Below are positions 39,111-55,214 of a DNA stretch of 55,214 bases, piece after piece. The number at the start of each line of letters is the position of its first letter. Position 1 is the stretch's first letter. The translations under genes and the position numbers were made by a program. The notes beneath the pieces are model-generated. The model worked only from the letters and a program-made list of their open reading frames with translations, was not told where the DNA came from and ran no database searches. Source of the stretch: Opitutales bacterium (GTDB lineage Bacteria; Verrucomicrobiota; Verrucomicrobiia; Opitutales; Oceanipulchritudinaceae). The stretch covers positions 1 through 55,214 of the forward strand of contig JAFIGH010000024.1 of NCBI GenBank assembly GCA_020831525.1. Direction: 5' to 3'.

Positions 39111-39468
<358 letters not shown>

Positions 39469-41722: not shown

Positions 41723-41803
41723 TGTTTCACATTGGGGGGGCGCGAGAGTCGGCGCGGGAATCCTGTCTTGCTTCCACATCGCCGGCGGCTTTCCAATCGC
41801 GCG

Positions 41804-43624
41804 GTGAAACTCCACGACTTTTTGTGGTCGCTTACGACCGACCGGATGCGGGAAGGCGCCAAGGCACTCGGCGAACGCAAGCTGCCGACGCGCAAGTCGG
41901 ACCTTGTGGCTCTTCTGAAGGAGCGCCTGCTCATAAATCCCGGAAAGTGGGTGGAGCGCGAACCGCGGGCCGAACAGTTGGCCATGGCCGAGATCGCCCA
42001 CGGCGGCGCCGTCAGCGCCGACGTATTTCATGCGAAACACGGCATGGATTTCCCGAAGGTTGCCGACCGGTGGAACAATCGCCCCGTGGATACAGTCTTC
42101 GGGCGAATCGTTTTTTACGACGACACAGGCAATCCCGGATGGGACTTGGCGGAGGAGTTGAAAGAAGCGCTGGCCGCCGTTTTGCCGGAGCCGAAGGCGT
42201 TTGCGCTGCCGGGCCACGACTCGCCGGAGGAGTTGGAGGGCTGGCCGCCTCCGCCACCGGACGCATGGAGCCCGCAGGGGATGCCCCGGGTCGTCAAGGC
42301 GACAGTTTGCGAATGCGCGCCCGCCGCGCCGGTGGAATTGGCCGGTGTGTTGACGCTTGCGGCAAAAGGCAAGCTGAAGCTCGCCAAGAACGGGCTGGCG
42401 ACCGCCGCCAGCGAACGCGCCGTCCAGCCCCTGCTCGTCGGCGGCGATTTTTCCTTGGAGGACGACACCTTCGAAAGCCGGTACTACGGCGATCCCGGAC
42501 CGCCCGGACCGGTGCGGGCCGCGGCATGGCCCGCCCTGCTGGCCGCCGCGAAGTGGGCGAAGGCGTCCGCCGCCGGCGCGCTCACCTTGACCACGGCGGG
42601 GAAGCCGCTCCTCGCCGGTTTCGATGCCATGGCCTACAAAGAGGGCGTCGAGAAGGCGATGTACAGCGAGGCGTTCGACGAACTCGCGCGCATCAACCAG
42701 ATCCGCGGCCAAAGCGGACGGGGCAAGCGCGCCTTGACGAATCCGGCGCTGCGGCGCAGCAGCATTTTCGAGGGTCTCGCCGAGATGCCGGCCGGCAGAT
42801 GGTTTTCCTTCGAGGAGGTCTTCCGGTTTCTGTGGGCAAACGGGTTTGCGTTTGAGACTAGCCGCGATCCGGGAACGCTCTTTATCTGTGAGGCGGAATA
42901 CGGCCGGCTCTACACCGGCGGGGCGGACCGCAAGCTGTCCCGTCTCTACCTGTCGGCGGTTCTCTTCGAAACGTTGGGCACGCTGGGCATGGTCGATGTC
43001 GCCTTCACCCCGCCGCACGAAGCCCGTTATGAGTTTGACCAGGAACTTGGGGTTGAAGAGCCCGCGTACCTGAGCCGTTACGACGGATTGCTGGGTGTGC
43101 GGATCAATCCGCTCGGCGCCTATTGTCTTGGTATTGCGGATACCCTTGAGCTGGCACCGCCCAAGACGTCGGGAAAATTCCGCGTCCTGCCGACACTGGA
43201 GATCGCTTTGACCGGCGGCCGCTGCAAGCCGTTCGACGAATTGCGGCTGGAACGCGCCTGCGTGCCGGAGAGTGACCACGTGTGGCGGTTGGACGAGCAA
43301 ACAGTCCTGCGCTCGATCGAGAACGGGCAGCCAATCGACGAGATCGAGGAGGGCATCGCCGCCCTCTCGGAGGACGCGCTGCCGCCGACCGTCGCTTCAT
43401 TTTTCCGGGACATCCGCGACCGCATTTCGGCGGTTGTCGGCCGCGAGGAAGCGGAGCTGATCCGGTTGCGCGACGCGAAGACGGCGGCGTTGCTCGCTTC
43501 GCGTCCCGACCTGCGCAAGATCTGTGAGCCGGCGGGCGAAACATGCCTTGCGGTGCCGAAGAAAAACCTCCGCGCCTTTGTCTCCCGCCTGAAACAGCAC
43601 GGCTACGTTCTCCCGCAGGCATGA
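41804..43624 (+). CDS. helicase-associated protein with XPB/Ssl2-type N-terminal domain, partner of the downstream helicase
   Basis: 606 residues from GTG 41804 (VKLHDFLWSL); the upstream extension is Arg-rich and overlaps a repeat. The C-terminal ~170 residues resemble the XPB/Ssl2-like domain found before or beside XPB helicases: FRVLPTLEIALTG, DHVWRLDEQTVLRSIENG and EIEEGIAALSEDALPPTV. The middle is helical, with KLSRLYLSAVLFETLGTLG and winged-helix-like segments. No ATPase motif. It overlaps the helicase gene by four bases (ATGA), which implies a 1:1 complex. Comparable long helicase-associated proteins are known in other bacteria, but their role is not established. Confidence 0.85.
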   Translation: MKLHDFLWSLTTDRMREGAKALGERKLPTRKSDLVALLKERLLINPGKWVEREPRAEQLAMAEIAHGGAVSADVFHAKHGMDFPKVADRWNNRPVDTVFGRIVFYDDTGNPGWDLAEELKEALAAVLPEPKAFALPGHDSPEELEGWPPPPPDAWSPQGMPRVVKATVCECAPAAPVELAGVLTLAAKGKLKLAKNGLATAASERAVQPLLVGGDFSLEDDTFESRYYGDPGPPGPVRAAAWPALLAAAKWAKASAAGALTLTTAGKPLLAGFDAMAYKEGVEKAMYSEAFDELARINQIRGQSGRGKRALTNPALRRSSIFEGLAEMPAGRWFSFEEVFRFLWANGFAFETSRDPGTLFICEAEYGRLYTGGADRKLSRLYLSAVLFETLGTLGMVDVAFTPPHEARYEFDQELGVEEPAYLSRYDGLLGVRINPLGAYCLGIADTLELAPPKTSGKFRVLPTLEIALTGGRCKPFDELRLERACVPESDHVWRLDEQTVLRSIENGQPIDEIEEGIAALSEDALPPTVASFFRDIRDRISAVVGREEAELIRLRDAKTAALLASRPDLRKICEPAGETCLAVPKKNLRAFVSRLKQHGYVLPQA

Positions 43625-45336
43625 CCGCCGTCCGCCCCGATAATCCGCTCATCGTCCAGAGCGACCACACCGTGCTGGTCGAGGTGGACAGCCCCCGCTA
43701 CAACGAGGCCCGTGAGGGCCTTGCGCGCTTCGCCGAGCTGGTCAAATCGCCCGAGCACATCCACACCTACCGCCTCACGCCGCTCTCGATCTGGAACGCC
43801 CGCGCGGCGGGATTCGCGGAGGAGGCCATCGTGGCGGCGCTCACCGGGTATGCAAAATATCCGCCGCCCGAAACAGTGCTGGCGCAAGTCCGTGAGTTTT
43901 CCTCCCGCTACGGACGGCTGACGCTTGCGCGCGACGACGGGGGAGAACTCGTTCTGACCGCCGAGGACCCGCTCATCGCGCGCGCCATCACCAACCGCCG
44001 CGAGACGGAAGGGCTTTTGCATCCGGAGGGTGACCGCACCTTCCGGGTCGAGCCGGCGCGGCGGGGCCCGCTCAAGCAGGCGCTCACGCGAATCGGCTAT
44101 CCGGTGCAGGATCTCGCCGGGTACAGTGACGGGGAGCCGTTGCCGCTGCGCCTCGCGGAAACGACGCGCGGCGGCGCGCCTTTTTCCTTGCGGCGGTACC
44201 AAAACGATGCGGCGGAGGCGTTTTACGCGGGCGGCGGGCCACGGGGCGGCGCCGGCGTGGTGGTCCTTCCCTGCGGCGGCGGCAAAACAATCGTGGGCAT
44301 CGCCTGCATGGCGCGGACGGGTTCCTCCACCTTGATTCTCGCCACCAACGTGACGGCGGTGCGCCAGTGGATCGACGAGATTCTCGACAAGACGGATCTG
44401 CCGGAAGAATGGATCGGCGAATACACCGGATCGTCAAAGGACATTCGCCCCGTCACCGTCACGACGTACCAGATTCTTACCTACAGAAAATCGAGGGAAG
44501 CGGACTTCGGACACTTCTCCATCTTCGACCGGCGCGACTGGGGGTTGGTGATCTACGACGAGGTCCACCTCCTGCCGGCGCCGGTCTTTCAAATCACAGC
44601 CAGTCTACAGGCGCGGCGGCGTCTCGGATTGACGGCTACCCTCGTGCGTGAGGACGGCCGCGAGGAAGACGTCTTTTCATTGATCGGCCCGAAGAAGTAC
44701 GACGCGCCATGGAAAACTCTTGAGGCGCAGGGCTGGATCGCCAAAGCGCGCTGCACCGAGATTCGCGTGGCGATGCCGGAGGACCTCGCCTTCGCCTACG
44801 CCACGGCGGAGCGGCGGCGCCAGCACCGGATCGCGGCGGAAAACCCGGCCAAGCTCGAACTCGCCCGCGGGATACTCGCGCACCACCCCGGCGAACCCGC
44901 GCTGGTCATCGGCAGTTACGTCGATCAGGTAAAGGCCGTGGCCGACTACCTCGGCGTGCCCCTCTTGACCGGCTCGACCCCGCAGAAAACACGCGACCGC
45001 CTGTTCAGGGAGTTTCGCGAGGGACGCCACCGGGTGCTCGCGGTTTCGAAGGTGGCCAACTTTTCCGTCGACCTGCCGGATGCCGCCGTCGCCGTGCAGC
45101 TTTCGGGCGCGTTCGGTTCCCGCCAGGAAGAAGCCCAACGCCTCGGGCGCATCCTGCGTCCAAAGGCACACGGCAAACAGGCGCACTTCTACACCCTTGT
45201 CAGCCACCAGACCTGCGAACAGGAGTTCGCCCTGCGCCGCCAGCTCTTTCTTTGCGAACAGGGCTACACCTACGAAATCCTGCACTTGGAGGATGGAAGC
45301 CGATTTGATTTTGCAGTATCGCACGCAAACAGATGA
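43621..45336 (+). CDS. XPB/ERCC3-type superfamily 2 DNA helicase
   Basis: 571 residues from the ATG overlapping the previous stop. Residues 10-125 form an XPB-type N-terminal domain (VLVEVDSPRYNEAREGL, TYRLTPLSIWNARAAG). Helicase motifs: Q-like LRRYQNDAAEAF (~190), Walker A LPCGGGKT (216-223), DEVH (313-316), motif III LTAT (337-340), the XPB-specific RED (343-345) followed by DVFSLIGPKKY, and motif VI EEAQRLGRILRPK. It translocates on or unwinds DNA by ATP hydrolysis; the eukaryotic relatives open DNA in repair and transcription. Bacterial XPB is patchily distributed. No Bax1-like nuclease is adjacent. Confidence 0.93.
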   Translation: MTAVRPDNPLIVQSDHTVLVEVDSPRYNEAREGLARFAELVKSPEHIHTYRLTPLSIWNARAAGFAEEAIVAALTGYAKYPPPETVLAQVREFSSRYGRLTLARDDGGELVLTAEDPLIARAITNRRETEGLLHPEGDRTFRVEPARRGPLKQALTRIGYPVQDLAGYSDGEPLPLRLAETTRGGAPFSLRRYQNDAAEAFYAGGGPRGGAGVVVLPCGGGKTIVGIACMARTGSSTLILATNVTAVRQWIDEILDKTDLPEEWIGEYTGSSKDIRPVTVTTYQILTYRKSREADFGHFSIFDRRDWGLVIYDEVHLLPAPVFQITASLQARRRLGLTATLVREDGREEDVFSLIGPKKYDAPWKTLEAQGWIAKARCTEIRVAMPEDLAFAYATAERRRQHRIAAENPAKLELARGILAHHPGEPALVIGSYVDQVKAVADYLGVPLLTGSTPQKTRDRLFREFREGRHRVLAVSKVANFSVDLPDAAVAVQLSGAFGSRQEEAQRLGRILRPKAHGKQAHFYTLVSHQTCEQEFALRRQLFLCEQGYTYEILHLEDGSRFDFAVSHANR

Positions 45337-46005
45337 GATCCAATCCCATCCGCTCACCGAAACGATCCTCGAACTGGCGTCAACCAAAGCGAAGCCGCTG
45401 ACGCACCACACTCAGAAGCTCAGTCCGGGCAATCATACGTGAAATCCTGCATTTCCTTTGCAGGATTTCAAAAAAAAGGCGCCGGAGTTGCCGGGGATTT
45501 GCCTCCGGAATGAAATGGAACGGAAGTTCCGGACACCCAAAGGAATGGGTATGGCGAGACCGGTCCAGCCAACGTAGCCGACTGCCATCTTGGCGGTCGG
45601 ACCGCGACGCGCGAAGGCCCGTAATCGCGCGATCCCCCGCCTACACCGAACGCCGGTGGCCTCCTGCCCCCGATGCATGAGGCCAAGAACCACGGATAGC
45701 GCGGATGATCACGGATACGCTTTCCAACGGCTATTTGAACCGCGAAGGGAGTATAGGTCGCGGAGACCTTTCCCGCCGAATTATTTTTCCCACCAGCGGC
45801 TGTCGGCATTCCGCCGGGGCTTCCCGGTAAGTCGGAAGTCCGTGAGCCGGATTAGCGAACGGTTCACTTGGAAGGTCGGTCGGTGTTTTCCAAGAACGCG
45901 CGATCAACCCGCCTTTGGAGGTCTCGGCTCTGCCCGCGCCGCAGTGGAAGCGGCCACCCGCCTCGACCCCGCGCGCCGCCGGTAAGACCACAAACAATGT
46001 TCATC
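45337..46005. repeat. gene-free stretch with dispersed repeats
   Basis: Contains a perfect 11-bp hairpin GAAATCCTGCA/TGCAGGATTTC (45441-45469) followed by seven A (not a standard terminator), a ~87-bp dispersed repeat (45574-45660) whose core is CCGACTGCC-N5-GGCGGTCGG (45578-45600), and a CACGGATA-type direct repeat near 45690-45720. I find no credible protein in it. Confidence 0.6.
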
Positions 46006-46055
46006 GGATCCTCACTCCTCGGATCGACCGCGGTCGATCCGGGAAGTGAGGATCC
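46006..46055. repeat. 50-bp near-perfect palindrome
   Basis: Two 25-base arms with two mismatches and no loop; the centre GGATCGACCGCGGTCGATCC is a perfect 20-bp palindrome and the ends are GGATCCTCACT/AGTGAGGATCC. It could extrude as a cruciform or act as an operator. It ends five bases before the 23-bp repeat array. Confidence 0.85.
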
Positions 46056-46060
46056 GCCAG

Positions 46061-46152
46061 GTAGCCATTTGCCGAACTTTAAAGTTGCAATCTGCCGAAG
46101 CCTAATGTTGCAATCTGCCGAAGCCTCCGGTAGCCATATGCCGAGGATGAAG
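46061..46152. repeat. four tandem 23-bp repeats overlapping the start of the DUF4143 ATPase
   Basis: Units begin at 46061, 46084, 46107 and 46130. Units 1 and 4 start GTAGCCAT(T/A)TGCCGA; units 2 and 3 start GTTGCAATCTGCCGAAGCCT and are identical over 20 bases. All share TGCCGA at the same phase. The candidate start codons of the ATPase lie inside unit 4, so a protein bound here would block its own expression signal. About two helical turns per unit suit a repeated operator. Confidence 0.85.
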
Positions 46153-47406
46153 GTCGACTTGTCAGATCAAACTTACTTCCCCCGCCATCTTCGGGGCGCG
46201 GTGGAAGCGGCTTTGTCCGACACGCCGGTGGTATGCCTGCTAGGGCCGCGGCAGTGCGGAAAGTCGACGCTGGCGCGCCTTTGCGAGCCGGGCCGCCACT
46301 ATGTCAGCCTGGATGACAAGGGATACTTCGATCTCGCCCGTCAGGATCCGGAAGGCTTTATCGACGGACTGCCGGAGCGGGCCGCGATTGACGAGGTGCA
46401 ACGCGTTCCCGAACTCACGCTGGCCATCAAGCGCAACGTGGACGCAAACCGCAAGGCCGGTCGCTTTCTCCTCACCGGTTCCGCGAACCTGCTGCAACTG
46501 CCGCGTCTGGCAGACTCCCTTGCGGGTCGAATGGAGTGCCTCCATCTTCACCCTTTGACCGAATCCGAGGTTCGAAAATCGGAGGGGCGGTTTCTGGAGT
46601 CGTTTCTGGACGGAAACGTAAAACCGGAGATCACTCCCTCAGGAAACCCCAAACCCTCGGAACTGCCAGCCCTGCTGGTGGCGGGCGGTTACCCGGAATC
46701 GGTGAAACGAAATCCCGCGCGGGCAGATCGCTGGCGGCAAAACTACATCCAATCTATCGTCGAACGGGATATACGCGACATTGCCGAGGTCAGGGACGTC
46801 AGCGACCTGATTCGTTTTCTCAGTTTCCTCGAGAGCCGCACAGCCCAACTCCTCAACTACAGCGCCATATCCCAGGACCTCGGTCATTCCCGGGCAACGG
46901 TCGAGCGTTACCTGACGCTGCTGGAGCGCCTGTTTCTCGTCCGCCGCCTGCCGGCGTGGCACAGCAACCGCAGCAAACGCCTGGTCAAGGCACCGAAGCT
47001 TCATTTCGTCGACTCCGGGCTCGCGGCCACCTTGGGCGAACTGGATGCGGATCGATGGAACGAAGAGCGTCCGCGTTTCGGCCACTTGCTGGAATCCTTT
47101 GTTCTCCAGCAGATCGTCGCCATGGCGGACTGGATGCCCCGGCCTCCGCGCTTTTTCCATTACCGTGACCGCGACAAGACCGAGGTCGACATTGTCATTG
47201 AGTCGCGGAACCGCATCTGGGGTGTCGAAATCAAAACCGCTTCAAGTGCCAATTCGCAAGACATCAAGGGCCTGCTCAAGCTCGCCGAAATCGCAGGAGA
47301 GCGTTTCCAGCAGGGAATCGTCTTCTATGACGGGCAGGCCACTCTCCCTTTGAACAAACATCCTGACATTCTCGCCGTGCCGCTCTCCAAACTCTGGACA
47401 CTCTAA
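46138..47406 (+). CDS. AAA-type ATPase with DUF4143 domain
   Basis: 422 residues from ATG 46138; ATG 46147 is equally possible. Walker A LLGPRQCGKSTLAR, Walker B AAIDEVQRVPEL, sensor LLTGSANLL, then a winged-helix region (NYSAISQDLGHSRATVERYLTLLE read in parts) and a C-terminal DUF4143 domain with the nuclease-like pattern EVDIVIES...GVEIKTA. Such ATPases are widespread in bacteria and archaea and are often horizontally transferred; a biochemical role is not established. No toxin or antitoxin is adjacent. The array of 23-bp repeats at its start suggests autoregulation. The frame is open for 90 more codons upstream, but these run through the palindrome and repeats. Confidence 0.9.
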   Translation: MPRMKVDLSDQTYFPRHLRGAVEAALSDTPVVCLLGPRQCGKSTLARLCEPGRHYVSLDDKGYFDLARQDPEGFIDGLPERAAIDEVQRVPELTLAIKRNVDANRKAGRFLLTGSANLLQLPRLADSLAGRMECLHLHPLTESEVRKSEGRFLESFLDGNVKPEITPSGNPKPSELPALLVAGGYPESVKRNPARADRWRQNYIQSIVERDIRDIAEVRDVSDLIRFLSFLESRTAQLLNYSAISQDLGHSRATVERYLTLLERLFLVRRLPAWHSNRSKRLVKAPKLHFVDSGLAATLGELDADRWNEERPRFGHLLESFVLQQIVAMADWMPRPPRFFHYRDRDKTEVDIVIESRNRIWGVEIKTASSANSQDIKGLLKLAEIAGERFQQGIVFYDGQATLPLNKHPDILAVPLSKLWTL

Positions 47407-48259: not shown

Positions 48260-48282
48260 AGAAGCCCTGCCGGGCAGCGGAG

Positions 48283-48353
48283 CGGGAAGGCGGTAAATCC
48301 AGTAGACAAAGAGCGCGCCAGACTCGGCATTCTCCAGCCCCTTGTCTCCGCCG
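48283..48353 (+). pseudogene. fragment of a LuxR regulator gene
   Basis: 48304-48353 equals 41061-41110 of the LuxR gene in 46 of 50 positions; in the matching frame it reads DKERARLGILQPLVSA. Just before it, GGTAAATCC at about 48288-48300 resembles the region upstream of the LuxR start (40517-40540). A possible HTH start (MLTERARP) appears near 48440, right before the next repeat. It is a decayed paralogue or duplicated piece. Confidence 0.55.
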
Positions 48354-48464
48354 GGCTGCCGACCACGCTTCGGCAGGGCTCAGCCGACCGAGTCAAGGTC
48401 AGGCAGCGACGACCTCCCAACCGCACACGCGCGCCGCGATGCTCACCGAACGAGCCCGCCCACA

Positions 48465-48556
48465 GTAGCCGACTGCCGTTCCGGCGGTCGGTCGAGCGTG
48501 CCCGAAGTCCCCGAAGTCCCGCAACCTCGCGATCCCATGCTTATCCGAGCGCCATT
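48465..48556. repeat. ~90-bp dispersed repeat, second copy
   Basis: Core hairpin CCGACTGCC-GTTCC-GGCGGTCGG (48469-48491), then a conserved CGCGATCCC and TATCCGAGCGCC tail. It matches 45574-45660 in the same orientation. From here on the sequence becomes clearly more AT-rich. Confidence 0.7.
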
Positions 48557-48755
48557 GGGGCCTGCCGGGACGAGCATGCAAATCAGAAAGAAGACCGTAA
48601 AGCTATGCTCGGTTGATTTTTTTCACCGGACCTTTCCGGGAAAACGACCAGACCAATGCTTACCACTTTTCCCCTCCCTCACCGACCGTCTATGAAACCG
48701 TTTTGAGTCCAATATAGTGTTGCATGGGAGGTCTATATCGGAAAGGAGTAAGCTT

Positions 48756-49703
48756 ATGCGAGGTTCTGTTCAATATCCACGGCATGATCTGTCTGTCAAA
48801 ACCGGCCTGATTTTCAGCGCCCTAGTGTGCTTCCTAGTCGGTGCGGTATGGCTTCTTGCCAGCGCGCAGAGACCTTCAGTGTCCACACAGCGAGTGGATG
48901 TAAGAACAACCGGAATGCCAAGCAACGTTGGGCGTGGAAACGTTTATCTTTTGGATGAACAAAGAGGGATGATTCTGCAGGTCGGACGTTTTTCCGATAA
49001 CGAAGGCGAAGTCATCCTCTCGCTTCGGGTTCCGAATCATCAACTCCGAGAGGAAGTTCGTTGGCAGGCCCAATTTTGGCATCCCGGTTATTCAAGTTAC
49101 AGCCCTTATGTAGATTTTATCAATGATGTTCGCTTGCGGAACAGTATTTCCGAAATCGTTTCCACAGCCTTTCGCGATTCTGCTCTGCGGGAGGAGGCCG
49201 AAGAGCTTGGGCGGAAGGTATTCGAGGAGCTGTTTGCAAAGGCCCAGCCCAGTTTTCGGGAGATAACCGATGACCCGCAATTCCGTTCTCTGCTGGTGGA
49301 CGTTGCCTTGGAAGAGGGAAGTCACCTTCTTCCGCGTGCAGAGCATCGACGAATCGAACGAACTTGGGTTGGGCCAATGGTCGATGTAGTCGTCGCCAAA
49401 GCACGGCTTTGGCCTTGGTCTGAATGGGTCGGCGAGATTGTTTCAGATCCTGAAAAAGAGGAAACCCTCAACTCGCTTCTGAACAGCATGGAACCTTACT
49501 TTCGCGAAGCCCTGCAGGATTTCCTCTGGAACCGTGACCAAATTCTTCGGCCCGGACCCCAGTATGCCCCTAATGTTCGCTTGCTCTGGGTTGCCCGCCG
49601 GACTTTATTCGGTGCCCGTGAGTCGGCCATTACCTTGTTGGAAGCAACAGACGGAGAAAAATTGTCAGGGGAAACCACTTTGACCGTGCAGGAGATCCAA
49701 TGA
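48756..49703 (+). CDS. membrane-anchored MCE/MlaD-like protein (tentative)
   Basis: 315 residues from ATG 48756, with AGGAGT six bases before it, one of the clearest ribosome binding sites in the window. One N-terminal membrane helix (TGLIFSALVCFLVGAVWLLAS) is followed by a ~90-residue beta-rich part (GNVYLLDEQRGMILQVGRF, EGEVILSLRVPN) that resembles a divergent MCE domain, then a ~170-residue helical region (SEIVSTAFRDSALREEAEEL, WVGPMVDVVVAKARLWPWSEW). MCE proteins carry lipids between membranes together with an MlaE permease and MlaF ATPase. The MCE call rests mainly on the coupled downstream gene, which overlaps by 4 bp. Confidence 0.75.
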   Translation: MRGSVQYPRHDLSVKTGLIFSALVCFLVGAVWLLASAQRPSVSTQRVDVRTTGMPSNVGRGNVYLLDEQRGMILQVGRFSDNEGEVILSLRVPNHQLREEVRWQAQFWHPGYSSYSPYVDFINDVRLRNSISEIVSTAFRDSALREEAEELGRKVFEELFAKAQPSFREITDDPQFRSLLVDVALEEGSHLLPRAEHRRIERTWVGPMVDVVVAKARLWPWSEWVGEIVSDPEKEETLNSLLNSMEPYFREALQDFLWNRDQILRPGPQYAPNVRLLWVARRTLFGARESAITLLEATDGEKLSGETTLTVQEIQ

Positions 49704-51199
49704 TTCTTGAAAACATTGTATTGAAGCGCTCCGGAAAAACGTTGATTAAAGGGGGAAACCTCCCTTTGCAACCTGGTAAGGTTACGGTTTTTTTCGGCCC
49801 GAGTGGTGGAGGAAAGTCCACCCTGCTTTATGGTTTAGCAGATTTGGACCGTCATGTCGTGTTGCGAAGCGACCAAGGAGAACAGCCTCTCTCTCGGCTT
49901 CGCGTAGGAGTAGTCCCCCAGCAATCAGCTGTTTTTGAGGATTTTGGAGAAGCACGCAAGAATCTCTCCTTTGCCTATGATCACTTGCCGCGTGGGGAGA
50001 GAGAGGAAGGCCAACGGGCGATGAAATGGGCAAGGGACTCTCTTGGTATCGATGGGACATGGCGTTTTCCGCTCTCCGGCGGACAGAGACAGCGGGTGGC
50101 TATTGCGCGGGCATTGGTCGGAAATGCCCGTGTTCTATTGTTTGATGAGCCTACCAGTGGTCTGGACCCCGCGAGCCGGGCAGAAGCTATCAAGGTGGTG
50201 GGAGAAGCGGCTCGCACAGGGGTTTCGGTGCTGGTGGTAACTCATGATCTGGAGTGGAATCATCCGGAGGCTGCGGACACAATCGTCTTGCTGAAGAATC
50301 GCATCCTGGAAACCCGGGGGCCGGGCGAGGATTTAGCGCCGTCGTTTTTTTTGCGCTCGCCCGTGGATGCCGAAGAAGACCAACCACCGCCTCTTTGGGA
50401 GCGAAAGATGGCTCAATGGGGCAGGACCCTGTGGTGGTTTGGAAGCGTTCCAGCACAGATCGCTCTTGGCCTGAGGGGAGAGGAGAAGGTCAAGCCCGGT
50501 TGGCTGGCCCTTTTTCTACGGCATTTCGGAGGGATGGTCTGGGGAGTGTCATCTCTCATTTACCTTGCGGTGGCAGGAATATTGGTGGGCTTCTCCAGCT
50601 TATATTTCTCGGTGGGAGCCCTTGAGCCGTCGCCCCATTTGCAAACCATTCTAGTGCCCGAGCTATTGAGCGGTAGTGGATTTGGCCTCTACCGGGTGAT
50701 TATCCCTCTACTAGCTGCGCTTTTAGTCGCTGCCAAATGCGGCTCCGCTCTCGCTGCCGATATTGGAAACCGTGCCTATGGCGGGCAGATTGGGGTGATG
50801 CGGACCATGGGGACCAATCCGGAAACTTATCTTCTGCTCCCCGCATTGATCGGTTTTGGTATCGGCCTTCCTCTGCTCCACCTGCTGGCCTTCGCCATGG
50901 CTTCGACAGGTTCTCTCATGGGATATCTCCTGACCTTTCCCCAAGAAACAGTCTTTTCTTGGCGAAGCGGATTCTTCCGCCTGCTCTGGGCGGAAGGTGG
51001 ATTTCTTCCCGCGGGTACTCTTTGGAACTTCACCAAACTTTCCCTTTCCGGAATGGGCGTGGCCATGATCGCCTACTACTGCGGAAGCTTGCCGAAAACC
51101 AGTAACACCGATGTCGGGCAGGACATCTCCCGAGCCACGGTCTGGGGCAGCTTATGGTGCCTGATTGTGTTTACCCTTTTCGCCTTGGTGGAGTTCTAG
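49700..51199 (+). CDS. ABC ATPase fused to MlaE-type permease
   Basis: 499 residues. Residues 1-~225 are a complete ABC ATPase: Walker A GPSGGGKST (33-41), signature LSGGQ (125-129), Walker B VLLFDE (146-151), H-loop VVTHDLEW. After a linker, residues ~260-499 are an MlaE/YrbE-like permease: MVWGVSSLIYLAVAGILVG, PLLAALLVAAKCGSALAADIG, GQIGVMRTMGTNPETYLLLP, LPLLHLLAFAMASTGSLMGY. In known Mla systems MlaF and MlaE are separate proteins; a single-chain ATPase-permease is unusual. It probably forms a dimer that moves phospholipid or another hydrophobic substrate, working with the MCE-like protein encoded just before. Confidence 0.9.
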   Translation: MILENIVLKRSGKTLIKGGNLPLQPGKVTVFFGPSGGGKSTLLYGLADLDRHVVLRSDQGEQPLSRLRVGVVPQQSAVFEDFGEARKNLSFAYDHLPRGEREEGQRAMKWARDSLGIDGTWRFPLSGGQRQRVAIARALVGNARVLLFDEPTSGLDPASRAEAIKVVGEAARTGVSVLVVTHDLEWNHPEAADTIVLLKNRILETRGPGEDLAPSFFLRSPVDAEEDQPPPLWERKMAQWGRTLWWFGSVPAQIALGLRGEEKVKPGWLALFLRHFGGMVWGVSSLIYLAVAGILVGFSSLYFSVGALEPSPHLQTILVPELLSGSGFGLYRVIIPLLAALLVAAKCGSALAADIGNRAYGGQIGVMRTMGTNPETYLLLPALIGFGIGLPLLHLLAFAMASTGSLMGYLLTFPQETVFSWRSGFFRLLWAEGGFLPAGTLWNFTKLSLSGMGVAMIAYYCGSLPKTSNTDVGQDISRATVWGSLWCLIVFTLFALVEF

Positions 51200-51316: not shown

Positions 51317-52144
51317 TCAGTCTTCGGCTGGAGGAAATTCATCGCGGATATATGTTAATAAGGCGGCGAGTTTACGCTCAGGATGAGATCCGCTGAACCG
51401 GTAGGATTCTACGTCATCAAGGGATTGAATATGTTCAATCACGCTGATCGGAGAACCCCTGCGAGAGGTCCGGAAATGATTACGGTAGAAATCCCAGCGC
51501 GAAGATCCCGCGGATTCCCTGAATATTTCGGTAAACCAAACCATGTGTTCATAGTAGACATAGTCTTGCCTAAGAAATACTCTCTCGTTGTGAGGGCCTC
51601 TACTTGAAACAGAAAATTCTCGACTCCTCCTTTCCGAAAACGCCTCGAATAGCTCCGGGAAAAGTGGATTAGCTGGCAATCCATCAAGTCCGTTCTGGAT
51701 TTCATTCAAATGGGTAGTGAATTCAGACATAAAATTCCTGTAACTCGCAACAGAATCAAACCGATCAGTTATATTTCTCATGTCCGAAAGGCCGATCTCA
51801 CTCGGACGAAAAACGAATCGATTAGGATGAGGATTTTCACGAAGGATTGCAGAAAGATTAGGATCGCTTAGAGTATCGACTCTTTCATATAAAATATGAA
51901 TGCCCTTAACTTCGAGAAGAAACGCTGCAGCTTTTTGTAGTTGTTCGTCGTCAGATTGATCGTACAAAAATTCTGACCAACTCACCAATTCCTGCGGCGG
52001 ATGCATTGGCGCAGGTTGTTGCTTAGTGACACAACCCGAAGGCATCGAAAAAAATACGAGCAAACCAGCGAAAAAGAGCAGCAACAGTGAGATACAAACC
52101 ACTTTCCGCGTCATAAAATAAACTGCCATAACAAGTGCCTTCAT
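51317..52144 (-). CDS. uncharacterised membrane-anchored or lipoprotein-like protein
   Basis: 275 residues from ATG 52144; ATG 52114 (MTRKVVC) would suit a signal peptide better. A hydrophobic segment VVCISLLLLFFAGLLVFFSM ends in PSGC, a poor but possible lipobox. The mature part is hydrophilic and mixed helical, with a Tyr/Trp-rich stretch (DYVYYEHMVWFTEIFRE). I recognise no family. AT-rich like its neighbours and convergent with the ABC fusion gene; it is 69 bp downstream of the next gene in the same direction. Confidence 0.75.
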   Translation of the reverse strand: MKALVMAVYFMTRKVVCISLLLLFFAGLLVFFSMPSGCVTKQQPAPMHPPQELVSWSEFLYDQSDDEQLQKAAAFLLEVKGIHILYERVDTLSDPNLSAILRENPHPNRFVFRPSEIGLSDMRNITDRFDSVASYRNFMSEFTTHLNEIQNGLDGLPANPLFPELFEAFSERRSREFSVSSRGPHNERVFLRQDYVYYEHMVWFTEIFRESAGSSRWDFYRNHFRTSRRGSPISVIEHIQSLDDVESYRFSGSHPERKLAALLTYIRDEFPPAED

Positions 52145-52213
52145 GTAGTATTTTAATTAAGGTCGTCGATTCCTGTATTTAAATTTTCGGCGCATTATAA
52201 AAAAATGAATCTT

Positions 52214-53221
52214 CTAATTAATTCGATTTAGCGCTTCAAGAATCTTATCCTCAATTCTGGTTGGATCCTCTGCGTCAAAATCCTCAACTCCCCTGACTTT
52301 TCTCAATCCCTCTCGTAGATTCAGCTCATTGTCCGCTTTGGAATCGTTGATTATTTTCTTCAAAATTAACTGCAGTCTCTCAATTTGTTCATCAAGATCA
52401 GAAAGATGTTCCTTGTTTAAAACGCTGAAGGATTTTGCAGCGGCGTCAAATTCGCCGTCTCTTAGGTTTTGAAGAAATCTCTCCCAATCCATATTAACCT
52501 CTTCCACAGTCAAAAGGCTTGCCTCACCCTGGTCTTCTCCCAACCTTTCTTCCTGTAGAGCAATATCTGATTGTAATCCTGAATTCCCCGGGACCAAATG
52601 CCGAACCAATAGGATTATGAGGATAAGGCAGACGACCGCAAGTAATCCCGGAAGCACAATCCGACGTGTTTTTATTTTCGGGGCAGACTTTACGATAAGG
52701 ATTTGCTTAGTCTCTCCACCGGCATTTGGGCAGACATCGTTCGGACAATGCATTTCCACTTCGGCGGGAGAGGACCCGGCACCAGCGTGCATCGTTCGGG
52801 AAATGGGTAGATTTAACCGCTCAAGCAGGCTATCCATCCGCGGGTCGCGTGAAAAAAGGGGACCTTCGCGACCTCCACCGACTCCCTCTCCGTTGATCCA
52901 TTTGTCGATCTCGTTAATCAGATAACTCTGCAATGCAGTCCGGATATTCAACCTGTCTTCGTGACTCCACTGTGTTCCATCGGGGGTCAACAGAAGGAGG
53001 GTTTCCGTACCTTCTCGGGTGGTTCCACAAGGTTCCTTGTGCGTTACCCGCCGACTCACACAGGGATAGATATCCCTGTTCCCCGACCTGATTCTTTGCA
53101 GGGCTTCGAAAACTTCCTCTCGGTTCGGGGCACAGCTACTGACCACTAAAATATACCCTTGCCCCCCCCGTGATCGCGGAGTTTCTAGAATCAGGCAAGG
53201 TGTTGAAAAGGAAGATCCCAT
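52214..53221 (-). CDS. uncharacterised single-pass membrane protein
   Basis: 335 residues. The N-terminal ~180 residues are cytoplasmic-type with six or more Cys (SSCAPNREEV, PCVSRRVTHKEPCG, MHCPNDVCPNAGG), the last resembling a small metal knuckle. One membrane helix (VLPGLLAVVCLILIILLV, about 192-212) is followed by ~120 helical, acidic residues (WERFLQNLRDGEFDAAAKSF, EQIERLQLILKKI). No family recognised. It starts 12 bp after the stop of the GTPase-like gene and so belongs to the same operon. Confidence 0.8.
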   Translation of the reverse strand: MGSSFSTPCLILETPRSRGGQGYILVVSSCAPNREEVFEALQRIRSGNRDIYPCVSRRVTHKEPCGTTREGTETLLLLTPDGTQWSHEDRLNIRTALQSYLINEIDKWINGEGVGGGREGPLFSRDPRMDSLLERLNLPISRTMHAGAGSSPAEVEMHCPNDVCPNAGGETKQILIVKSAPKIKTRRIVLPGLLAVVCLILIILLVRHLVPGNSGLQSDIALQEERLGEDQGEASLLTVEEVNMDWERFLQNLRDGEFDAAAKSFSVLNKEHLSDLDEQIERLQLILKKIINDSKADNELNLREGLRKVRGVEDFDAEDPTRIEDKILEALNRIN

Positions 53222-53233
53222 GCAGATTTAAGA

Positions 53234-55207
53234 CTAGTAGTCACCTCGAAAAGAATGATACTGACCCTTCCATTCGTCGGGGGGTCTTCCAAATCCATCG
53301 GTTTCTCTTAGACGAAGGGCAACCTTTGTTCCTCCATCGGTGGAGGAAACATTTATTCCGTCGTGAGTAGAGCGAAGAACTCTCACTGATATTTCCCGTT
53401 CGCTGGATTTGTCATCGTTTGAACTGGAAAACCAATAGCGCATTCCCCAAAAAGTGGGGTTTGTTCTAGATCGGATATGGTAAGATAATCTAAACATCTC
53501 TGAATCCCGGGCAATCACTTCAGGTCCCACATCAACCCAATTATCAAGAGCCTTTGTATCTGTAATCCTTCCATGCTCCGAACCCTCCAAAAAGACCCTC
53601 AAATCAATCTCATCGGCATTACCGAGCGAACCGTTCCCTCGCAGTTTTACTTGCAGACGACCATGATAATCCCCCCTTAGCCACTGTTTAACGAAACCTT
53701 GCATGAAGGGCTGTTTGAGGTTGGGGTTGGAGCTTCGCAGATATTCCTCAGCTATTGCTCTCGATGGATCATCCCGTATTTTAGAGTAAGCTTGAAAATC
53801 GTCATGCGCCTGCCTAATTAATTCTATTGCGTGCGCGATATCCTTTGTTAACCATTCCCATTGTGCTTGGCGCTCAAATCTCCTTTCGAGATCTCGTAAT
53901 TCCCGAATGCGCGAATCAAATTCAAAAAGTCGAAGGGCTTGGTTCACCGTATCCAGGAGGGCGGCCTTCAATTCCTCGTTCATTCGGTCCTGAAGGCCGG
54001 GAGTAAGGTTTTCCCCGCCAGTCAACAGAGCAGAAACATAATCACAAGCTTGTTTTATGTCGGAACTACTCAGATATTCTCTGAAGTTGGCCCAGTTTTG
54101 CAGCCACTCCCGACGTTCGCGGCCGGTCTCCAAGGCCTCCCCGATATGGCGCAATCGCTCTTGCATTACATCATCTTCTCGACGGCGCCGGGGAAAGCTA
54201 TCTTCCACAATCGCCCGCAGGGTGGAAAATTTTTCTTTTGCGGGCGAACTCTCTCTAGATAGCTCCTCAGCCACGCATTTCAAGAGGTTCCACCACTCAG
54301 TCATTAATTCCACCGAGATTGAATCGCCATCATGACCCAATGCGGTGGCGAGTCGGGATGTCGCGCGGATGTGATCTTCATGATCGGTATCCAGTGGCAT
54401 TTGAGCTATGACCCGCTTAGTCCTCGCAAGGCTTACGCGATGCAGTTCTCGCAGGAGCTGTTCCTTTTCGCTTTCTCGCATGGGGGAACGTGGCCACGGC
54501 CAGATCGACGCATAGATGGCCGGCTCCTGGTTAATACGTTCCACCGATTGCCGGACACTTTCGTCGGGAACTTGATTTGATTTGTTTTCTATAAAATACT
54601 CCAGATCTTGCCGTGCCTGCGAGATCGGCGTCACGTATATCCGGTTCTTTATGATTCCCCCGACGAGAAGGCTTACCAATAAAAGAGCCAAGACAGTAGC
54701 CCCGTAATTCCTGCTTCTGATGAGACCGATGCGGATAAATTTCCGAAGTTCGAGTCGACTGCTGGCATCATACACAATCTCCTGCAATTCGTCCATGATC
54801 GTCGGCAGCATTGCCTCCATGCCGGAATTGCTTTGAATCTCACGCCGCAAGGAACTCGCCTCATCCTGCAGGGATTCGACTTTGCGCACACTTTCTTCGT
54901 TGAAGAGTAAAACAGGGAGATCCAGCACCTCTCTCTTCATTTCCTCCAATCTACGCTCTGTCTGCTTTTGATATTCATCACGTATGGCTTGGACCATCAT
55001 GCCCAAGGTATCCTCCAAGCCAAAGGACGGAAGGAGATTGTTCCGGATTACCGGTCGTTCAATTCTATCACCCCCTGAAATCTTCTCGACAATCTCACTT
55101 TCTCCAAAGGCACTGACCGGTAGCAAAAAAACGGGGCCATTGGCAATTCCGGCCAACACATTTCTGGTTCTTCGGAGATTTTCATGGAAACATGCTGAGC
55201 TTTCCAT
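53234..55207 (-). CDS. GTPase-like membrane protein, 5' end cut by the window
   Basis: At least 657 residues from the ATG at 55207, but the frame is open to the window edge and the first visible residues (NVLAGIANGPVFLLPVSAFGE) look like the G5 end of a P-loop GTPase, so the true start is probably outside. After a coiled segment (RRLEEMKREVLDLP, KVESLQDEASSLRREIQS) there is one membrane helix (YGATVLALLLVSLLVGGI, about 170-190), a ~350-residue helical domain and a C-terminal beta-rich domain (~510-640; RLQVKLRGNG, DLRVFLEGSEHG). The order GTPase, membrane helix, helical domain, beta domain recalls TssM/IcmF proteins in outline, but I see no IcmF signature. Function unknown. Confidence 0.78.
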   Translation of the reverse strand: MESSACFHENLRRTRNVLAGIANGPVFLLPVSAFGESEIVEKISGGDRIERPVIRNNLLPSFGLEDTLGMMVQAIRDEYQKQTERRLEEMKREVLDLPVLLFNEESVRKVESLQDEASSLRREIQSNSGMEAMLPTIMDELQEIVYDASSRLELRKFIRIGLIRSRNYGATVLALLLVSLLVGGIIKNRIYVTPISQARQDLEYFIENKSNQVPDESVRQSVERINQEPAIYASIWPWPRSPMRESEKEQLLRELHRVSLARTKRVIAQMPLDTDHEDHIRATSRLATALGHDGDSISVELMTEWWNLLKCVAEELSRESSPAKEKFSTLRAIVEDSFPRRRREDDVMQERLRHIGEALETGRERREWLQNWANFREYLSSSDIKQACDYVSALLTGGENLTPGLQDRMNEELKAALLDTVNQALRLFEFDSRIRELRDLERRFERQAQWEWLTKDIAHAIELIRQAHDDFQAYSKIRDDPSRAIAEEYLRSSNPNLKQPFMQGFVKQWLRGDYHGRLQVKLRGNGSLGNADEIDLRVFLEGSEHGRITDTKALDNWVDVGPEVIARDSEMFRLSYHIRSRTNPTFWGMRYWFSSSNDDKSSEREISVRVLRSTHDGINVSSTDGGTKVALRLRETDGFGRPPDEWKGQYHSFRGDY

Positions 55208-55214
55208 GCCGGAA

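Follow-up and report, generated by a model that had tools for sequence, protein, structure and literature searches.

To our knowledge, the MlaE-type permeases characterised so far are partnered by an MCE protein and by an MlaF-type ATPase that is a separate chain. Here we describe a two-gene operon in a 55,214-nucleotide stretch of DNA from an Opitutales bacterium (contig JAFIGH010000024.1 of assembly GCA_020831525.1; hereafter the window, which is the complete contig C45 of a 5.3-Mb genome in 184 contigs). Its second gene encodes in a single chain, P0002, an ATP-binding cassette (ABC) ATPase followed by an MlaE-type permease, and its first gene encodes P0001, a protein that starts with a hydrophobic helix. 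On balance we think it probable that the pair forms a further ABC transporter for lipid in the inner membrane, a homodimeric member of the MlaE (PF02405) superfamily with P0001 in the place of MlaD.

In the E. coli MlaFEDB-MlaC/MlaA system, and in the mlaEFDCA cluster that the Opitutales genome itself carries, an ABC ATPase, an MlaE-type permease and a single-pass periplasmic protein occur together, as they do here; unlike the window, both have separate ATPase and permease genes, an MlaD with an MCE domain, the ABC signature SGGM and an intact charged cluster in the permease. The Mla pathway exchanges phospholipid between the membranes, its transporter working with MlaA and MlaC or with a long MlaD that spans the envelope. 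MlaD consists of a membrane helix and a periplasmic MCE domain and forms a hexameric ring (PMC12436622). Four residues of E. coli MlaE, R97, E98, K205 and D250, form a conserved charged cluster; their alanine mutants grow unaffected on sodium dodecyl sulfate plus ethylenediaminetetraacetic acid, and their role was left unclear (PMC7790496). The same source describes a small periplasmic helix in the region of transmembrane segments 3 and 4 (TM3-TM4) and a distant relationship of MlaE to MacB/ABCG-type membrane domains (PMC7790496). A second family motif, EExDA in the coupling loop, has been proposed to contact the ATPase (PMC1810536).

Fusions of MlaE are on record. In STAS-MlaE fusions such as Brucella MpcE, and one encoded on contig C76 of the present genome, MlaE carries an N-terminal module, but this is a STAS (MlaB-like) domain and not an ATPase (PMC12436622). 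Closer to P0002 in domain content is RB3287 of Rhodopirellula baltica, a fusion of DUF140 and an ABC ATPase mentioned as 'one case' by Casali and Riley (2007, PMC1810536), so that an ATPase-permease fusion is no new architecture and the statement of the initial annotation that described systems keep MlaF and MlaE apart was too strong. Like P0002, RB3287 holds an ABC ATPase and a DUF140/MlaE domain in one chain; known from one published sentence, it may belong to the same group. Judged by titles and abstract openings, no other account of such a fusion was recognised in the literature searched, and in the portions of text available neither 'fused' nor 'fusion' occurs in PMC10665443 and 'fused' does not occur in PMC5561183. 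What is new is a strongly divergent version of the fusion, in two distant bacteria; the fusion itself is not unprecedented.

The fused ATPase and permease

The features of the gene pair are the following, in window coordinates.

48743-48748, plus strand: Shine-Dalgarno sequence AAGGAG, 7 nt ahead of the P0001 ATG, read from the sequence
48756-49703, plus strand: open reading frame (ORF) of P0001, 315 aa, one N-terminal hydrophobic helix, no recognised domain
48789-48866, plus strand: N-terminal hydrophobic helix of P0001 (residues 12-37), a putative anchor or signal peptide, from hydropathy and the best-scored part of a poor model
48885-49121, plus strand: predicted beta-rich stretch of P0001 (about residues 44-122), possibly MCE-like, unproven, from low-confidence models
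49134-49544, plus strand: predicted helical region of P0001 (about residues 127-263), from a low-confidence model
49690-49694, plus strand: Shine-Dalgarno sequence AGGAG of the fusion gene, within the P0001 gene, 5 nt ahead of the P0002 ATG, read from the sequence
49700-49703, plus strand: ATGA start/stop overlap of the P0001 and P0002 genes, read from the sequence, the same ATGA being present at the Azospirillum locus L040
49700-51199, plus strand: ORF of P0002, the 499-aa ABC ATPase-MlaE permease fusion, from Pfam and a full-length homologue in Azospirillum sp. B510
49700-50344, plus strand: ABC ATPase half (about residues 1-215), PF00005
49796-49822, plus strand: Walker A, GPSGGGKST, read from the sequence, with G33, P34, S35, G36, G38, K39, S40 and T41 common to the Azospirillum fusion
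50075-50086, plus strand: ABC signature SGGQ (SGGM in MlaE-adjacent ATPases), from sequence comparison
50132-50152, plus strand: Walker B and DEP, VLLFDEP, read from the sequence
50543-51187, plus strand: MlaE-type permease half (residues 282-496), PF02405 at 6.5e-23, 84 bits in the whole-genome scan
50753-50809, plus strand: coupling-helix region AADIGNRAYGGQIGVMRTM, with GQxGV at the EExDA position, from alignment
50960-50980, plus strand: WR..FFR stretch in the TM3-TM4 region, common to the Azospirillum fusion, from alignment

The open frame of 499 codons is not a product of chance, since 2000 random 1500-nt sequences of matched base composition contain, over three frames, no run without a stop longer than 284 codons. 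Pfam places ABC_tran (PF00005) at residues 19-153 of P0002 with an E value of 8.3e-20 and MlaE (PF02405) at residues 282-496 with 6.5e-23, the latter match extending over positions 9-211 of the 212 in the profile. Walker A, the signature motif, Walker B and the H-loop histidine are all intact. The initial annotation, made from the letters alone, had proposed an ABC ATPase fused N-terminally to an MlaE-type permease and coupled by ATGA to the gene before it, in a region with good Shine-Dalgarno sites; the two domain matches in one ORF, an MlaE profile score of 81.9 bits against a cut-off of 22.5 and the positions listed above agree with it on each count. We file P0002 as a divergent member of the PF02405 superfamily, not as a canonical MlaE/YrbE.

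A relative in Azospirillum and the divergence of both halves

The initial annotation also proposed a search for other ABC-MlaE fusions and their neighbours. A second copy with the same two-gene layout was found. In a tblastn search with P0002 of 72,556 plasmid records, plasmid pAB510b of Azospirillum sp. B510 aligned along the entire query at 29.0% identity (E 2e-36), the sole full-length single-gene match among the matches listed (5000 records, nearly all found through ATPase similarity). The fusion encoded there, P0004 (WP_012976576.1), is collinear with P0002, has the same domain order with 29-31% identity, and matches PF00005 at 8.2e-24 and PF02405 at 2e-7 (31.3 bits, profile positions 12-211). 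The protein encoded upstream, P0003 (WP_012976577.1), has by hydropathy one N-terminal hydrophobic stretch, and the junction of the two genes is an ATGA overlap, as in the window. Because a homologue of the same layout is present on a complete plasmid, a frameshift or an assembly error is unlikely to have produced the fusion. The two loci also have in common the SGGQ signature, the loss of E98 and D250 and the WR..FFR stretch; they differ in the length of the partner (377 aa in Azospirillum), in R97, and in what lies downstream, which in the window is a set of convergent genes without family match. In Azospirillum the product of the first gene 3' of P0004 on the same strand matches Mitofilin with a score slightly under the cut-off, and the second gene, also on the same strand, encodes an MlaA-family outer-membrane lipoprotein (PF04333, 5.1e-29), a neighbour that suggests lipid exchange between membranes. 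At the same locus (L040, 19105-20193) is an ORF weakly like the neurotransmitter-gated channel ligand-binding domain PF02931 (E 0.0057, below the cut-off).

Viral contigs, phages (searched with P0001) and plasmids yielded no fusion besides that of Azospirillum sp. B510. With the permease half alone, two of the 72,556 plasmid records matched at 1e-3, that of B510 and, weakly, an A. oryzae plasmid (H24), which has separate permease and ATPase genes. A Paenibacillus match covering 92% of the query likewise spans two genes, one annotated as an ABC ATPase and the other as a permease, and three matches to P0002 on genome contigs are ATPases only, because their coverage of the query stays within residues 15-220. 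No match to P0002 at 1e-30 was found in 88 relatives (up to 17 candidates scored per genome) and none to P0001 at 0.001 in 386 other genomes of the phylum. A profile built from the two fusions matches 193 of 387 phylum genomes at E 1e-30; besides the window, all matches listed (up to 4 candidates per genome) end at or before position 271 of 532. Among 395 genomes from the phylum of a Prevotellaceae metagenome-assembled genome none matched at 1e-28, a result that shows little, as three candidates were scored per genome without a positive control.

The permease half stands well apart from the MlaE proteins of related bacteria. MlaE is present in 81 of 89 genomes, the Opitutales genome included, and the window copy scores 84 bits where the other full-length MlaE matches listed score at least 208 each; two further low-scoring rows represent a single gene family, in fragments located at contig ends. 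In a search with phmmer of 2662 ORFs, the permease half of P0002 scores 78 bits against its Azospirillum counterpart and at most 41 against any other, and a tree of 48 permease domains pairs the two as sisters (Shimodaira-Hasegawa-like approximate likelihood ratio test, SH-aLRT, 99) relative to 46 canonical MlaE domains, albeit on long branches that brought a program warning. The 46 canonical rows, from which domains under 190 aa and duplicates had been left out, come mostly from one order, with E. coli and one Prevotellaceae genome added. K205 is kept in both fusions and in all 46 canonical rows, and R97 is kept in P0002 and replaced by Q in P0004 (42 R, 2 Q and 2 L among the canonical rows). 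The EExDA motif reads GQxGV in P0002 and SQxSA in P0004; its D and its A are each present in 45 of 46 canonical rows, and we give the change little weight because the exception is E. coli MlaE itself, which reads EQLSS.

The ATPase half differs in its signature. SGGM is present in E. coli MlaF and in all 49 MlaE-adjacent ATPase ORFs (48 distinct cores) of the fetched loci, a count that left out the E. coli and Azospirillum loci, whereas both fusions have SGGQ; this marker is empirical and comes from the present analysis, not from a paper. The 24 other ATPase ORFs comprise 19 with SGGQ, 2 with SGGM, 1 with SGGE and 2 in which none was found. The two non-adjacent SGGM rows belong to loci that had been retrieved through an MCE match; they are probably MlaF proteins for which the adjacency rule failed to catch the permease. 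(The set had been cleared of ORFs shorter than 200 aa, of duplicates among the ORFs, of one duplicate core and of E. coli MetN, in which no core was found.) In the free ATPase tree, which has very long branches, the fusions fall outside a 51-row MlaF clade (SH-aLRT 96). A tree constrained to place both fusions with MlaF is not rejected, its likelihood being higher than that of the free search by 6.2 (approximately unbiased test, p-AU 0.65), and one constrained to keep the two fusions together also has a likelihood above that of the free search (p-AU 0.66). The signature suggests, and does not prove, that a non-MlaF ATPase was recruited. As a separate observation, the MlaF ATPases show three Walker B contexts, DEPTSELDP, DEPSAGLDP and DEPTTGLDP, which may mark MlaF subgroups.

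The upstream partner

P0001 matches no family in Pfam, NCBIfam, PADLOC or PHROGs and no PDB sequence up to E 10. The PF02470 profile gives no match for P0001 or P0003, and a hidden Markov model (HMM) of MCE grown from the E. coli MlaD domain, which matches 60 ORFs of the fetched loci, reports nothing for either protein with all filters off, P0003 having been scanned with Pfam and this HMM. A scan of the genome with PF02470 finds two MCE genes, on contigs C171 and C133, neither within the window. AlphaFold run without an alignment gave a predicted local distance difference test score (pLDDT) of 43 for whole P0001 and, for residues 37-130, a model of six strands with pLDDT 58 and a predicted template modelling score of 0.41. 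With this 94-residue model Foldseek found nothing at an E value of 0.001 or lower, and VIA-align returned rows of scattered beta folds; no MCE entry is present among the 50 Foldseek rows or the 50 VIA-align rows shown, which means little because the model is so poor.

The initial annotation had described P0001 as a single-pass protein with an MCE-like beta domain and an extra helical domain, to be checked by an MCE profile search and by structure prediction of the protein alone. Its MCE domain finds no support in family profiles, the MCE HMM, the PDB sequence search or the structure searches, and prediction produced the models above and no confident fold. The layout of six strands followed by helices is seen in low-confidence models alone. 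As to the single pass, hydropathy does find one N-terminal hydrophobic segment (residues 10-40), whose orientation and non-cleavage we infer; it may be a membrane anchor or a signal peptide, an AxA-like 'ASA' following it in the sequence. That P0001 acts as an MCE-like partner is suggested by gene position and topology. The MCE fold is neither shown nor excluded; P0001 may derive from an MCE protein or may stand in for one.

Genomic setting and interpretation

Two further MlaE genes are found elsewhere in the genome. Contig C171 carries a canonical mlaEFDCA in one cluster (MlaC 1e-38, MlaD 2.5e-22, MlaA 8.2e-62), with which the only MlaA match of the genome and MlaC are placed, and on C76 the STAS-MlaE fusion is followed by an SGGM ATPase. 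Because canonical Mla genes are present elsewhere, the window operon is an extra system, provided that the contig is sound. The initial annotation called the region more AT-rich than the rest, and the GC content at third codon positions (GC3) agrees: the two operon genes have 0.51 and 0.58, and the eight measured genes that lie between 31808 and 45336 have 0.77-0.87. The genes at 45868 and 47558, ahead of the operon, have 0.69-0.70, three convergent ORFs at 51317-55207 have 0.41-0.50, and overall GC content is 0.60 in the intergenic stretch 48260-48755. The low-GC3 stretch is the last 6.5 kb of the contig, which ends at 55214.

The three ORFs at 51317-55207, on the minus strand, encode a lipoprotein-like product, one with a transmembrane-like segment and one of 657 aa that reaches the contig end. 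None has a significant family match, the 657-aa protein (53234-55207) has no match in the 88 relatives, and we rejected these genes as a part of the system, there being no similarity to the Azospirillum neighbourhood. A promoter scan returned one site, on the minus strand and no more than chance would give; terminator-like sites exceed those in shuffled sequences (8 versus 3.9 +/- 2.0), seven of them lying within or beside coding regions. Farther upstream, 45868-47406 encodes an AAA_14/DUF4143 ATPase (GC3 0.69), which among the PADLOC models matches best to PDC-S01, a candidate model (5.2e-155). An XPB/ERCC3-like helicase is encoded at 43543-45336, in an ORF overlapping a 630-aa ORF at 41732-43624 without a Pfam match at 1e-5, and a transfer-messenger RNA gene with the tag GEQEYALAA (39111-39466) is located beside a drop in GC at 39-41 kb (0.55-0.56).

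A foreign origin of the operon is plausible. The transfer from another lineage that the initial annotation had proposed is in keeping with the low GC3 and with the absence of matches in relatives; acquired DNA and a chimeric contig end both fit these data, so that this part of the proposal stands beside an alternative. In that alternative the low-GC end would be a chimeric join, the operon would come from another organism in the sample and nothing on transfer would follow. We judge it rather unlikely: GC3 values of 0.41-0.58 in the last 6.5 kb and the lack of matches to P0002 and the 53234-55207 protein in 88 relatives, and to P0001 in 386 other phylum genomes, are what it would produce, but GC3 drops in steps through the genes at 45868 and 47558, an acquired island would look alike, and the genes are intact and have a counterpart in Azospirillum.

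Three further explanations concern the nature of the transporter itself. That this is an ordinary Mla transporter whose mlaF and mlaE have simply fused is suggested by the domain content, by the fusion recorded in Rhodopirellula (PMC1810536) and by the ATPase tree with both fusions beside MlaF, which the data do not reject; the low PF02405 score relative to every other full-length MlaE listed in the 89 genomes, SGGQ in place of a signature that is SGGM in 49 of 49 cases, the MlaF clade of the free tree without the fusions and the retention of mlaEFDCA in the genome nevertheless make it improbable. A possibility that falls somewhat short of probable is that P0001 is a true MCE protein, a very diverged MlaD, so that two fused chains and an MCE ring would form a compact Mla complex. 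The P0001 gene adjoins an MlaE permease, and a helix, some 80 residues modelled with low confidence as six strands and then helices follow the order of MlaD, itself a helix and an MCE domain that forms hexamers (PMC12436622); PF02470 does not match and the MCE HMM is silent with its filters off on both partners, to which structure lists of 50 and 50 rows without an MCE entry, made with a model of pLDDT 58, add little of meaning. P0001 could instead be an unrelated periplasmic partner that has replaced the MCE ring, in a separate MlaE-type lineage with an ATPase and a partner of its own. That two distant fusions have both lost E98 and D250, that they share SGGQ rather than SGGM and the WR..FFR stretch, and that no MCE signal is found in P0001 or P0003 all point that way, but for a beta domain that evolves fast a missing profile match says little, the EExDA change counts little and homology of P0001 and P0003 cannot be shown; we regard this as somewhat unlikely. 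The more specific proposal of a separate and sparse lineage, in two distant bacteria and on at least one plasmid, with a non-MlaF ATPase fused to a permease whose buried charged cluster is lost and with a new class of single-pass partner instead of the MCE ring, is in our estimate quite unlikely.

The reading that we prefer, an additional lipid transporter of the MlaE superfamily with P0001 in the place of MlaD, combines observation with inference. We observe the two-domain chain, its intact nucleotide motifs, the gene overlap, the second and distant fusion of like layout and the lost permease residues; the dimer, the handover in the periplasm, the lipid substrate and the link to the outer membrane we infer. 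Half-transporters of the MacB/ABCG type also carry the ATPase ahead of the membrane domain in one chain and are homodimeric, although the membrane half of P0002 matches PF02405. Since P0002 holds ATPase and permease in one chain, a homodimer would supply two nucleotide-binding and two membrane domains. P0001 would be anchored, or exported, through its N-terminal helix with the remainder in the periplasm where, in MlaD's place, it would take or pass lipid on that side of the permease. Driven by ATP hydrolysis, lipid of some kind would move in one direction or the other between the inner membrane and P0001.

Several observations weigh against this reading. The window operon consists of two genes only, profile searches found no match to MlaA, MlaC or STAS among the window neighbours searched, and proximity to an MlaA gene is known at one fusion locus only. 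E98, present in 46 of 46 canonical permeases, is V in P0002 and A in P0004, and D250 (41 D and 5 N in the canonical rows) is F and H, respectively; with both lost, the same substrate and mechanism are not assured. The partners themselves give a BLASTP E value of 0.14, and shuffled sequences reached their alignment score 16, 49, 94 and 145 times in 500 and, for the N-terminal part, 418 times in 1000, the best of these five tests being global alignment with BLOSUM62 (16 of 500). An alignment made by eye hinted at a resemblance and was set aside. On these grounds we do not accept P0001 and P0003 as homologues; their similarity is not convincing, and what the two loci share in the partner is no more than its position and its topology.

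The operon offers a probable natural single-chain transporter without E98 and D250, which would help in testing the roles of those residues, and a single-chain construct could ease reconstitution. Its partner P0001 may be a new kind of subunit for lipid handover or an MCE protein that has diverged very far.

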